Positions 8,738 through 13,062 of a DNA stretch of 64,000 nucleotides are shown in pieces. The translations under genes and the position numbers were made by a program. The DNA is from Verrucomicrobiota bacterium (lineage in GTDB: Bacteria > Verrucomicrobiota > Verrucomicrobiia > Limisphaerales > UBA9464). How positions within the stretch are numbered: the first letter of the stretch is position 1; each line of letters opens with the position of its first letter. The notes below the pieces were generated by a model. It was not told the DNA's origin. It worked only from the letters and a program-made list of their open reading frames with translations, and did not search any database. Location of the stretch: positions 1 through 64,000 of the forward strand of contig CANGKZ010000005.1 of the NCBI GenBank assembly GCA_947454705.1, in the 5' to 3' direction.

Positions 8738-9124
8738 TCAGTGTTCCTTGTCCGGCTTGTGGGCGGAGTGGCAGGCCTTGCAGTTCACCGCTTCCTTGTA
8801 CTGGTCGAGCGCACCGGGAGTGCCCTTGTCGAGCGCCTTGGAGGCGGCGATCAACGCGGTGACGCGCTTCTTCCACTCGGCCTTGTCACCCTTTTCAGGA
8901 TCGTTCAGCAGCATCGAGGGATAGTACTCGAGGAGCTTCTTGATCTCTTCCTTGGTGCCGTTGCCGTCGGAGATGTGCTTGCCGATGGAGTCCTTGCCCT
9001 TGTGCAGGGCTTTCATGACTTCCGAGGTGGTGTACTTCGGCGTCGCGGCGGCCTGGGTCACCAGGGCGGCGGTCGTGGCGCCGGCGACGAGCACGGACGC
9101 GATGAAACGAACAGATGAGTTCAT
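8738..9124 (-). CDS. small periplasmic c-type cytochrome
   Basis: 128 residues. A signal peptide (FIASVLVAGATTAALVTQAAA) precedes a helical domain with one C-terminal heme site, CKACH, giving the arrangement of the cytochrome c-prime/b562 four-helix type with heme near the end. It would be exported and carry a covalent heme c. It lies downstream of, and on the same strand as, the phosphatase-cytochrome fusion (175-base gap), which also ends in a C-terminal CxxCH, so the two may work together. The electron partner is unknown. Confidence 0.82.
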   Translation of the reverse strand: MNSSVRFIASVLVAGATTAALVTQAAATPKYTTSEVMKALHKGKDSIGKHISDGNGTKEEIKKLLEYYPSMLLNDPEKGDKAEWKKRVTALIAASKALDKGTPGALDQYKEAVNCKACHSAHKPDKEH

Positions 9125-9299: not shown

Positions 9300-10229
9300 T
9301 CAATCGCGGAAATTCCGGTGACAGGAAGTGCACGATTTGCCCACGGCACGAAGGGATTCCGTGGCGGCGGATTCGGCGGCGGGGGTGCGGGTTTTGGCGA
9401 GGGTATCGAGCTTCGAGGTCAGCTCGAGGGCGGCTTGGTCGGCGGATTTGAGGGCTTCGGCAAAACGATCTCCCCGGGTGCTGGCCGCGCCGGTGCGTTG
9501 GGCTTCGTGCAGGAGTTCCTGGAGTTGAAGAGCGGTCGTAGCGGACTTCGGATCGCGGAATCCGCCGGGCTGCGCGGCCTTCAAGGCGGTCCAGTGTTCA
9601 TCGATGCGCACCATCACTTCGGCCAATGGGCTGACCTTGACCCGAGAGGGGAACTCGGTGCTGACGCTCGCGAGTTGTGCCGCGCTCGGGGCCTGAAAGT
9701 GGGAGGCGGCCTTGTAGAGACCGGTGTAGTTGGTCGAGGTTCCGGCGAGGCGCATCCAGCGTTCCGCGAGGGAGGCATCCCAGCCGGCGACGCCTTCACA
9801 CATCACGGCCACGGCGGCGGGACCGCGATGCTTTCCGTGGTGGCAGTGGATGTACACCAAGCCGGGCAGCGTCTGCGCGGCTTTCACGAGCTGAACCACG
9901 TTGGTGGCGGGAATGCCGTCGTAGCCAAACGGTAGGTGGACATACCGCATTCCGTGTTTTGCGGCGCGTTCCACATCGGGCGATGCGCCATCGACGCTGA
10001 GGATCACCTTCACCCCAAATCGGCTCAGCGCGGAGAAGGCTTCATCGGATTCTGGCGCGGATCCGGAGAGGAACCGCCCGGCCACGGCGTACACGTTGTC
10101 GAGCCCCGGCAGCTGCATGGGCCGGTACGGAGGCGGGGGCGCCTGCTGCGCGAGCGGTCGGAGGCAGACGACGCATCCCAGCATGGAAAGCAGTAGGAAT
10201 CGGAGAATCGCGTTGGGAATGGTGCGCAT
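9300..10229 (-). CDS. exported tyrosine-phosphatase-like domain fused to a C-terminal heme c site
   Basis: 309 residues. An N-terminal hydrophobic export segment (10-24) is followed by a dual-specificity/Siw14-like phosphatase domain at about 42-175, with the active loop HCHHGKHR (Cys129, Arg135; C-x5-R) and a candidate general acid Asp104 in FGYDGIP. A helical C-terminal part resembles a c-prime-type cytochrome and ends in CTSCH (300-304). Established: C-x5-R loops catalyse phosphoester hydrolysis and CxxCH binds heme c. Inferred: a periplasmic phosphatase whose activity or localisation is tied to heme or redox state. The gene lies upstream of a second cytochrome on the same strand. Confidence 0.85.
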   Translation of the reverse strand: MRTIPNAILRFLLLSMLGCVVCLRPLAQQAPPPPYRPMQLPGLDNVYAVAGRFLSGSAPESDEAFSALSRFGVKVILSVDGASPDVERAAKHGMRYVHLPFGYDGIPATNVVQLVKAAQTLPGLVYIHCHHGKHRGPAAVAVMCEGVAGWDASLAERWMRLAGTSTNYTGLYKAASHFQAPSAAQLASVSTEFPSRVKVSPLAEVMVRIDEHWTALKAAQPGGFRDPKSATTALQLQELLHEAQRTGAASTRGDRFAEALKSADQAALELTSKLDTLAKTRTPAAESAATESLRAVGKSCTSCHRNFRD

Positions 10230-12063: not shown

Positions 12064-13062
12064 ATGTCCACGTCCTCCCCGGAACTCGCCGCCCAACTGG
12101 CCGCCGCCAGCAGCCATCTCCAACAGGTCCGCACCGAGATCGCCCGGGTGATCGTCGGTCAGGGCGACCTCATCCACCGCCTGCTGGTCTCACTCGTCGC
12201 CCGCGGCCACGTGCTCCTCGAAGGCCTGCCCGGCCTGGCCAAAACCGCCAGCGTCAGCGCCCTCGCCCAGGCCACCCACTGCCAGTTTTCCCGCATCCAG
12301 TTCACGCCCGACCTGCTCCCGGGCGACATCACCGGATCGCTCATCTACGACCCGCTCAAGGGTACCTACTCCACCCGCACGGGGCCGATTTTCGCCAACC
12401 TCGTGCTGGCCGATGAAATCAACCGCGCCCCGTCCAAGGTCCAGTCCGCCCTGCTCGAAGCCATGCAGGAACGCCAGGTGACCATCGGCGATCAAACTTG
12501 GGCGCTGCCGAAACCTTTTTTGGTCCTCGCCACGCAGAACCCCATTGAACAGGAGGGCACCTATCCGCTGCCCGAGGCGCAGATGGACCGTTTCATGATG
12601 AAGGTGATCGTGGGCTACCCCTCCGCCGCGGAGGAGCTCGTGATCCTTGATCGCATGGCGTCCACCGCCCCAAGTTTGAAACTGGATGCGGTGGTCTCGC
12701 CGGAGGAGATCCTCACCTACCAGTCGCTGGTGAATCAAATCCACGTGGACCCGCTGGTGCGCGAGTACATTGTTCGCATCGTGATCGCCACCCGTGAGGC
12801 CGCTTCTGGCGCCGGGGTGGCCCCAGAATTGAAACGCCTGGTGCGCATCGGTGCGAGCCCCCGCGCGACCATCAATCTCACCCTCGCCGCCCGCGCCTGC
12901 GCGCTGCTGGAGGGACGCGACCATGTCACGCCCGACGACGTGAAGCTCATCGCGCCCGACGTGCTCCGCCACCGCATCCTGCTCACCTACGAAGCCGAGG
13001 CCGAGGAAGTCACCTCGCAGACCATCGTGCAGACCCTGCTCAGCAAGGTTCGCGTTCCCTGA
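12064..13062 (+). CDS. MoxR-family AAA+ ATPase
   Basis: 332 residues starting at the ATG at 12064. Walker A is GLPGLAKT, Walker B/sensor region is VLADEINRAPSKVQSALLEAMQERQVTIG, sensor 1 is LATQNPIEQEGTYPLPEAQMDRF and sensor 2 lies in GASPRATINLTLAARA. MoxR ATPases act as chaperones that activate partner proteins, typically the VWA-domain proteins encoded beside them, as here (DUF58, BatA, BatB). First gene of a seven-gene plus-strand operon running to 18643. Confidence 0.93.
   Translation: MSTSSPELAAQLAAASSHLQQVRTEIARVIVGQGDLIHRLLVSLVARGHVLLEGLPGLAKTASVSALAQATHCQFSRIQFTPDLLPGDITGSLIYDPLKGTYSTRTGPIFANLVLADEINRAPSKVQSALLEAMQERQVTIGDQTWALPKPFLVLATQNPIEQEGTYPLPEAQMDRFMMKVIVGYPSAAEELVILDRMASTAPSLKLDAVVSPEEILTYQSLVNQIHVDPLVREYIVRIVIATREAASGAGVAPELKRLVRIGASPRATINLTLAARACALLEGRDHVTPDDVKLIAPDVLRHRILLTYEAEAEEVTSQTIVQTLLSKVRVP

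Follow-up and report, generated by a model that had tools for sequence, protein, structure and literature searches.

A predicted exported protein combining a TpbA-like phosphatase domain with a class II cytochrome c domain in Planctomycetota and Verrucomicrobiota

The gene at positions 9300..10229 of the window (the whole stretch of DNA that was analysed, 64,000 nucleotides long) raises the question whether a cysteine phosphatase and a covalently attached heme have been combined in one exported chain, and whether the one acts upon the other. A sequence-only reading of this DNA had placed both sites in a single chain, which is borne out by the translation of the open reading frame and by conservation: Cys129 and Arg135 are the C and the R of HCHHGKHR (residues 128-135), and CTSCH occupies residues 300-304, near the C-terminus. 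The chain of 309 amino acids begins with a predicted export signal, continues with a TpbA-like dual-specificity-phosphatase (DSP) domain, and closes with a class II cytochrome domain. We regard this architecture and fold, an exported DSP-fold domain followed by a class II cytochrome, as very probably correct. The features of the gene are the following:

9300..10229, (-), gene of the fused protein, 309 aa, with an ATG start and a stop codon within these coordinates (open reading frame, translation, and homologues)
10146..10229, (-), predicted N-terminal export signal, residues 1-28, boundary approximate (hydrophobic N-terminus)
9696..10103, (-), DSP/PTP-fold phosphatase domain, about residues 43-178 (profile, sequence, and structure searches)
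9990..9992, (-), Asp80 in an SVDG motif, near-invariant in the fused clade (98 of 99 rows and 19 of 20 divergent rows; Arg in 34 of 39 unfused rows)
9918..9920, (-), Asp104, aligned with Asp105 of TpbA, the proposed general acid (Asp in 90 of 99 rows and only 6 of 20 divergent rows)
9825..9848, (-), P-loop HCHHGKHR, residues 128-135, with Cys129 as predicted nucleophile and Arg135 (translation and 99-row alignment)
9822..9824, (-), Gly136, a Thr in most unfused relatives (Ser in 62 and Gly in 37 of 99 fused rows; Thr in 33 of 39 unfused rows)
9303..9638, (-), class II c-type cytochrome domain, about residues 198-309 (Pfam, profile, and structural matches)
9612..9614, (-), Met206, predicted distal (sixth) heme ligand (99 of 99 rows and 20 of 20 divergent rows)
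9318..9332, (-), CTSCH motif for the attachment of heme c, residues 300-304 (both Cys and the His kept in 99 of 99 rows; CxxCH in 22 of 22 further fused proteins, L138-L159)

Conservation was judged over 99 aligned full-length rows, consisting of the window protein and 98 relatives (98 distinct sequences in all, since L002 and L031 are identical). These relatives were drawn from the genomes of relatives and from a scan of GTDB contigs with six patterns, among which YIHCHHGK, so that HCHHGK was favoured; the restriction to full-length alignments also favours CxxCH. Ten of the 108 loci with BLAST hits had been dropped, being incomplete (L004, L023, L029, and L053), containing the phosphatase part only (L024, L025, L027, L028, and L030), or starting one residue past the filter (L016); L026 gave no BLASTP match. 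A further set of 20 rows, free of the peptide-pattern bias, comprised the lowest-scoring of 95 full-length matches from an independent profile survey of Planctomycetota (the divergent rows). Cys129, Arg135, Cys300, Cys303, and His304 were kept in all 99 rows and in all 20 divergent rows, so that the pairing of HCHHGKHR and CTSCH is not due to chance. In G032, a full-length relative, a TGA occurs within the aligned stretch, and the open frame begins after this TGA (L013).

An AlphaFold2 model of residues 29-309, made with 77 sequences, had a pLDDT of 96.4 and a pTM of 0.89. TpbA was the best solved relative of the first half of the chain by sequence (2.5e-6, and 8.1e-9 with the family profile), and it was also the top structural match of the predicted phosphatase domain (VIA-align Z 17.5, rmsd 3.0, 155 aligned residues, 21% identity), with 1.3e-6 in Foldseek and a TM-score by target length of 0.74, placing the domain in the PTP/DSP fold as far as the predicted structure goes. 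Further structural matches were VHZ, SsoPTP, Siw14, PFA-DSP1, and DUF442 (3gxh, Z 15.3). With TpbA as the top match, the model does not point to a fold in which the C-x5-R loop would be something other than a phosphatase site, an outcome that the earlier reading had named as telling against it. C-x5-R was present in all 99 rows and all 20 divergent rows, preceded by His in 99 and 19 of them, respectively. In Pfam, the window protein matched PTP-SAK below the curated cut-off (E 8.8e-4), and 77 members of the family matched Tc-R-P (62), PTP-SAK (55), and BLH_phosphatase (24) at E <= 0.01; no match to the Tc-R-P family (PF22785) was found in the window's own genome. TpbA (PA3885), a DSP of Pseudomonas aeruginosa, shares with the window protein the DSP fold, the HC-x5-R loop, and Asp105, which aligns with Asp104, whereas it has no heme domain and carries a Thr after its loop. 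This loop is 131-HCKHGNNR-138, with Cys132 as nucleophile and Asp105 as proposed general acid, as given in the accessible part of PMC4409338.

A hydrophobic N-terminal stretch was found in 96 of the 98 relatives and a lipobox-like motif in 40 of them, both by crude pattern tests, and because the N-termini are hydrophobic the fused protein is probably exported. The heme would then be attached outside the cytoplasmic membrane by a CcsA/ResB system. The own genome of the window has matches to CcsA (PF01578) at two places and to ResB (PF05140) at one, over a short stretch; contig C64 of this genome carries one CcsA match and the ResB match.

The C-terminal helical segment of the sequence-only reading is helical and ends in CTSCH, as stated, and can be refined to a complete class II (cytochrome c'/c556/b562-type) domain, about residues 198-309, in which four helices form a bundle and the last of them carries the CxxCH. 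The C-terminal piece alone reached 26.7 bits for Pfam Cytochrom_C_2 (cut-off 26.5), the whole protein staying under this cut-off with 24 bits, and at E <= 0.01 the family was matched by 59 of 77 members, 18 falling short. Profile searches of the PDB with the heme domain gave matches to cytochromes c', b562, and c-556. When modelled alone (pLDDT 95.2), the domain gave a Z of 14.2-14.3 against the anammox Kusta0087/0088 complex (100 residues at an rmsd of 1.6-1.8) and of about 13-14 against cytochrome c', values that VIA-align notes to be near chance level for helical bundles (Z 13-14) and that are equalled by the designed bundle 8tn1 (Z 14.0); Foldseek with the heme domain alone gave nothing below 0.001, the best value being 0.07. 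As Z-scores of helical bundles lie near chance, the cytochrome assignment rests on the CxxCH, the profile matches, and the conservation of Met and Arg together. Only Met206, Cys300, Cys303, and His304 were invariant in this domain, and Arg308 nearly so. The four-helix bundle, the C-terminal CxxCH, and the Arg four residues past its His are shared with the class II cytochromes c (cytochrome c', c-556, and cb562), which stand alone in the solved structures, whereas the domain of the window protein sits behind a phosphatase. Kusta0087 and Kusta0088 of Kuenenia stuttgartiensis (PDB 6r6m and 6r6o), which are among the best structural matches and are also of planctomycete origin, differ by a low identity (9%) and by a matched chain of about 110 residues without phosphatase domain. 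Paralogues of the heme domain were not found elsewhere in the own genome at E <= 0.01. A single exported chain that holds both a phosphatase fold and a domain for c-type heme, as the earlier reading had it, thus agrees with the fold, profile, and homologue searches, as a prediction from sequence and model.

Low-spin class II cytochromes carry a Met on helix 1. As Met206 is invariant, a six-coordinate heme ligated by His304 and Met206 is suggested, which would make it an electron-transfer or redox-sensing centre and not a gas-binding one. An HMM alignment to cytochrome b562 paired Met7 of the latter chain with about residue 209, which is one turn of the helix away from Met206, so that the assignment of Met206 as ligand rests on its invariance. 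A c-type heme motif was likewise gained by an extracytoplasmic non-cytochrome domain in the sCache_heme (DUF3365) sensors, as described in the accessible part of a preprint (PMC12889525), where the motif is inserted in a Cache fold, in contrast to the whole cytochrome found here behind the phosphatase.

The phosphatase loop had been called intact, which is right only in part, since the active site deviates from what is usual in DSPs: the C-x5-R is present, but no Thr follows the P-loop Arg, the candidate general acid is not universal, and Asp80, His98, and Tyr103 come in addition. His98, Tyr103, His128-Cys-His-His-Gly, and Arg135 were found in all 99 rows, and His134 in 97. In the divergent rows, position 130 was His (10), Phe (9), or Glu (1), His134 was kept in 18, position 136 was Gly (18), Ser (1), or Ala (1), and the residue aligned with the general acid of TpbA was not Asp in 14. 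The loop of the fused clade is thus mostly HC[HF]HG.HR, followed by Ser or Gly, and Thr at position 136 occurred in none of the 119 fused rows. The unfused relatives (39 rows, a chosen subset of the unfused matches from the searches of relatives, phylum, and Planctomycetota) mostly have HCxHGxDRT, with Asp134 in 34 and Thr136 in 33 rows. Gly136 was present in all 24 rows (23 distinct, the window included) among the 99 that were taken as Verrucomicrobiota by kinship or title. In short, the fused clade has a rebuilt active site. The absence of a Ser or Thr directly after the P-loop Arg in the window protein does not exclude it from the wider superfamily, since it is absent from PRLs too.

A role of Cys144 as redox partner of Cys129 was weighed but not retained, as this residue lies 15 residues further on, in the following helix, and is present in 68 of 99 rows and in 1 of 20 divergent rows. 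Related loops occurred without CxxCH in the fetched frame, namely HCHAGRHR (L160), HCKNGKHR (L161), and, in an incomplete sequence, HCHHGKHR (L162), indicating that the loop type is not strictly tied to the heme. In L162, the loop is followed by an in-frame apparent second PTP-like repeat. The fused member L140 has an altered P-loop, TCETGRDR, and has kept the Met and the CxxCH of the heme domain.

The best explanation of the whole, for which we consider the chances evenly balanced, is that of an exported cysteine phosphatase whose second domain serves as its redox partner, with a heme-set site and a slow turnover. Cys129 and Arg135 would belong to the oxyanion-binding loop of the TpbA-like DSP domain, behind which the class II c-type cytochrome domain would be docked in a fixed arrangement, as the pTM of 0.89 suggests. 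The phosphatase site would take its state from the redox state of the heme, which might either maintain the Cys thiolate in reduced form or act allosterically across the interface; a functional coupling of heme and phosphatase, which the sequence-only reading had suggested as a redox-gated or electron-coupled activity, is, taken by itself, a claim that could fall either way. The substrate would most likely be a phosphorylated periplasmic or envelope protein. The phosphocysteine intermediate would be expected to break down slowly, with a low or switch-like turnover, because the Ser or Thr after the P-loop Arg is Gly here. In PRLs, as far as the accessible part of PMC12192612 reports, Ala in place of this Ser or Thr lets phosphocysteine last for more than 1 hour, and for weeks if the Asp is lost too, whereas the change of Ala to Ser speeds its breakdown more than 15-fold. 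Since the same two losses prolong the phosphocysteine of human PRLs, a slow turnover can be predicted by analogy for the fused clade, with a slow breakdown in the window protein (Gly136, Asp104 kept) and probably a still slower one in distant members. Going further, the phosphatase fold might have been turned into a heme-coupled cysteine enzyme, in which the rebuilt P-loop would carry a long-lived Cys intermediate, bound to phosphorus or sulfur, that is formed or released by exchanging electrons with the cytochrome or under its gating, a speculation to which we give a low probability. If true, this would be an extracytoplasmic, redox-driven switch that is found widely in Planctomycetota and also in some Verrucomicrobiota.

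PRL (PTP4A) phosphatases are eukaryotic and are not known to carry heme. The window protein may nevertheless resemble them in function, as a pseudophosphatase with a long-lived phosphocysteine that serves as a binding or sensing module instead of turning over a substrate, the heme reporting the redox state and changing partner binding. Such a role is rather improbable, and it draws on the P-loop Arg being followed by Ser, Gly, or Ala, and never by Thr, in all 119 fused rows, on the general-acid position, which is not Asp in 14 of the 20 divergent members and thereby also weakens the reading as a plain phosphatase, and on the DSP fold without Ser or Thr at this place that PRLs share, with the long lifetimes quoted above from the accessible part of PMC12192612. 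It is opposed by the Ser at this position in 62 of 99 rows, which should restore breakdown, and by Asp104, kept in the window protein and in 90 of 99 rows.

Alternatively, the rebuilt active site could carry out cysteine redox or sulfur chemistry on persulfide or thiosulfate, as in the DUF442/Blh sulfurtransferases, and pass electrons to the fused heme, an electron carrier that suits redox chemistry better than hydrolysis. The DUF442/Blh domains belong to the same PTP superfamily, with a profile-level similarity; the Blh sulfurtransferase/dioxygenase model was matched by 41 of 77 members and TIGR01244 by 9 of 77 (at E <= 1e-3, an E threshold and not the model cut-offs), and the DUF442 structure 3gxh came up at Z 15.3. 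The loop, however, is C-x5-R as in phosphatases, whereas the alignment shows the P-loop of DUF442 3gxg to be shorter by one residue, and the 3gxg structure is without heme domain. Moreover, TpbA is closest in both sequence and structure, and the window protein had no NCBIfam match at E <= 1e-3 (Blh, E 0.0084), its score for NF040641, a model that covers the whole bifunctional enzyme, being 15 bits against a cut-off of 625. Sulfur chemistry is unlikely on this balance.

TpbA, itself exported, works without heme, so that a heme domain is not needed for an exported DSP. The protein could also be an ordinary exported phosphatase with an independent cytochrome that serves as a local electron carrier or anchor; each domain has separate relatives, and a direct sign of coupling was not found. 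Yet the high pTM suggests a fixed docking, and the proteins of the fused clade share a distinct active-site pattern and have lost neither domain, making independence of the domains a quite doubtful alternative to the preferred two-domain phosphatase with its own redox partner.

The retention of both domains is apparent from the distribution of the fusion, a search for which had been recommended as a check and was positive. Among 58 genomes of relatives, the own genome included, matches were obtained in 28, of which 5 covered the phosphatase part only; the fused form was present in the other 23, at full length in 21 and truncated by a contig end in 2. The scan of GTDB contigs confirmed 176 relatives; of the best 80 of these 176, which by their titles were mostly Planctomycetota, plus Verrucomicrobiota and one Abditibacteriales record, 79 reach at least query residue 307, the remaining one being truncated by the end of its contig. 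Of 294 Planctomycetota genomes in an even sample, 154 gave some match. The upper tier of this survey (E <= 1.8e-39) comprised 98 places in 97 genomes, and 95 of these places (94 genomes) reach at least profile position 280 of 284, while the other 3 run into contig ends, indicating that the domains stayed together. In the next tier (E >= 2.7e-37), the matches listed end at or before position 155, except for a C-terminal fragment (G396) that complements a cut gene. Of 194 genomes taken as a sample of the phylum of the window, 40 matched, and the 39 besides the window's own end at or before profile position 185, without cytochrome. The fusion is thus not absent from all relatives, contrary to the outcome that would have spoken for an error. 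Furthermore, the same join occurs on complete replicons of cultured strains, namely the chromosome of Adhaeretor mobilis and a plasmid of Aquisphaera giovannonii. An artefact of assembly or gene calling that joined two genes is therefore ruled out, with next to no probability left, by the single open frame, by the same join in 98 other aligned loci (97 distinct), and by these complete replicons.

In a tree of the phosphatase domain (116 rows, 141 columns), the 77 fused rows (the window protein, 56 of the 98 relatives, and the 20 divergent rows) were all on one side of one branch, whose SH-aLRT support of 94 is just under the 95 mark of the tool; the tree was built rapidly, and many of its forks are open and several of its branches long. 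The fused or unfused state required one change on it, compared with a shuffled mean of 33. Because it is found again in many Planctomycetes and Verrucomicrobia, the fusion is, as judged by comparison of genomes, real and selected. One copy, under the title of a Chitinophaga pinensis metagenome-assembled genome (L102), is 95.5% identical to the Planctomycetaceae record L099 and has probably been mislabelled in binning or naming.

Where redox control of cysteine phosphatases is discussed, what is usually meant is that the catalytic Cys is oxidised directly. A covalent heme in the same chain, present in about one-third of the sampled Planctomycetota genomes (97 of 294), would be a dedicated electron port or sensor, and in such a two-domain system coupling is measurable by spectroscopy. 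A description of a phosphatase–heme c fusion was not found in the literature searched, which was covered mostly by title and start of abstract, with subscription journals largely outside coverage, and nothing came up in the literature on Siw14 with GKHR. The annotations of two plasmid-borne copies read 'dual specificity protein phosphatase' and 'hypothetical protein', heme being unmentioned, so that genes of this kind gain a name and a test. The architecture is a widespread one made from two known kinds, and its unusual active site makes a redox-linked or slow-turnover role testable.

The sequence-only reading had also noticed that another small cytochrome with a C-terminal CxxCH follows on the same strand, and this was found as an open reading frame with CKACH:

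8738..9124, (-), small protein, predicted to be exported, 128 aa, with CKACH near its C-terminus, downstream of the fused gene (open reading frame; no Pfam family over cut-off)

Its homologues lie beside L002/L031 (identical), L003, and L004, i.e., three distinct loci of the same genus, with more than 80% identity, and were not found within flanks of about 1.5 kb at L008 and L010, the other two loci of this genus. Apart from these, tblastn gave three other rows at E <= 1, all weak (0.088 to 0.77), the flanks being short. As it is seen in only part of the genus, the small cytochrome is not part of a conserved unit, and it was rejected as a conserved partner, occurring beside three distinct homologues only, all of the same genus. 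Its hhalign comparison with the fused heme domain gave a weak match (probability 46%, E 2.1e-4, 65 columns). Similarly, clustering of the neighbouring open reading frames (E 1e-8, 81 loci, flanks up to 5 kb and shorter at contig ends) revealed no neighbour judged real in more than 7 of the 81 loci among the 25 clusters listed, the larger clusters being, by eye, the fused family itself and apparent antisense shadow frames. A conserved operon was accordingly rejected for these loci, and the lack of a recurrent partner gene counts against the preferred explanation. On plasmid pPL62-1 of Planctomyces sp. SH-PL62 (L185, NZ_CP011274.1, 7854-16043), the fused gene has a DUF3365 (heme-Cache type) gene and a cytochrome c oxidase/SCO cluster in its vicinity. 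In the window itself, a MoxR-type AAA ATPase gene (AAA_3) is present at 12100-13062 (+), followed by open reading frames that by eye resemble a DUF58/Bat-type cluster.
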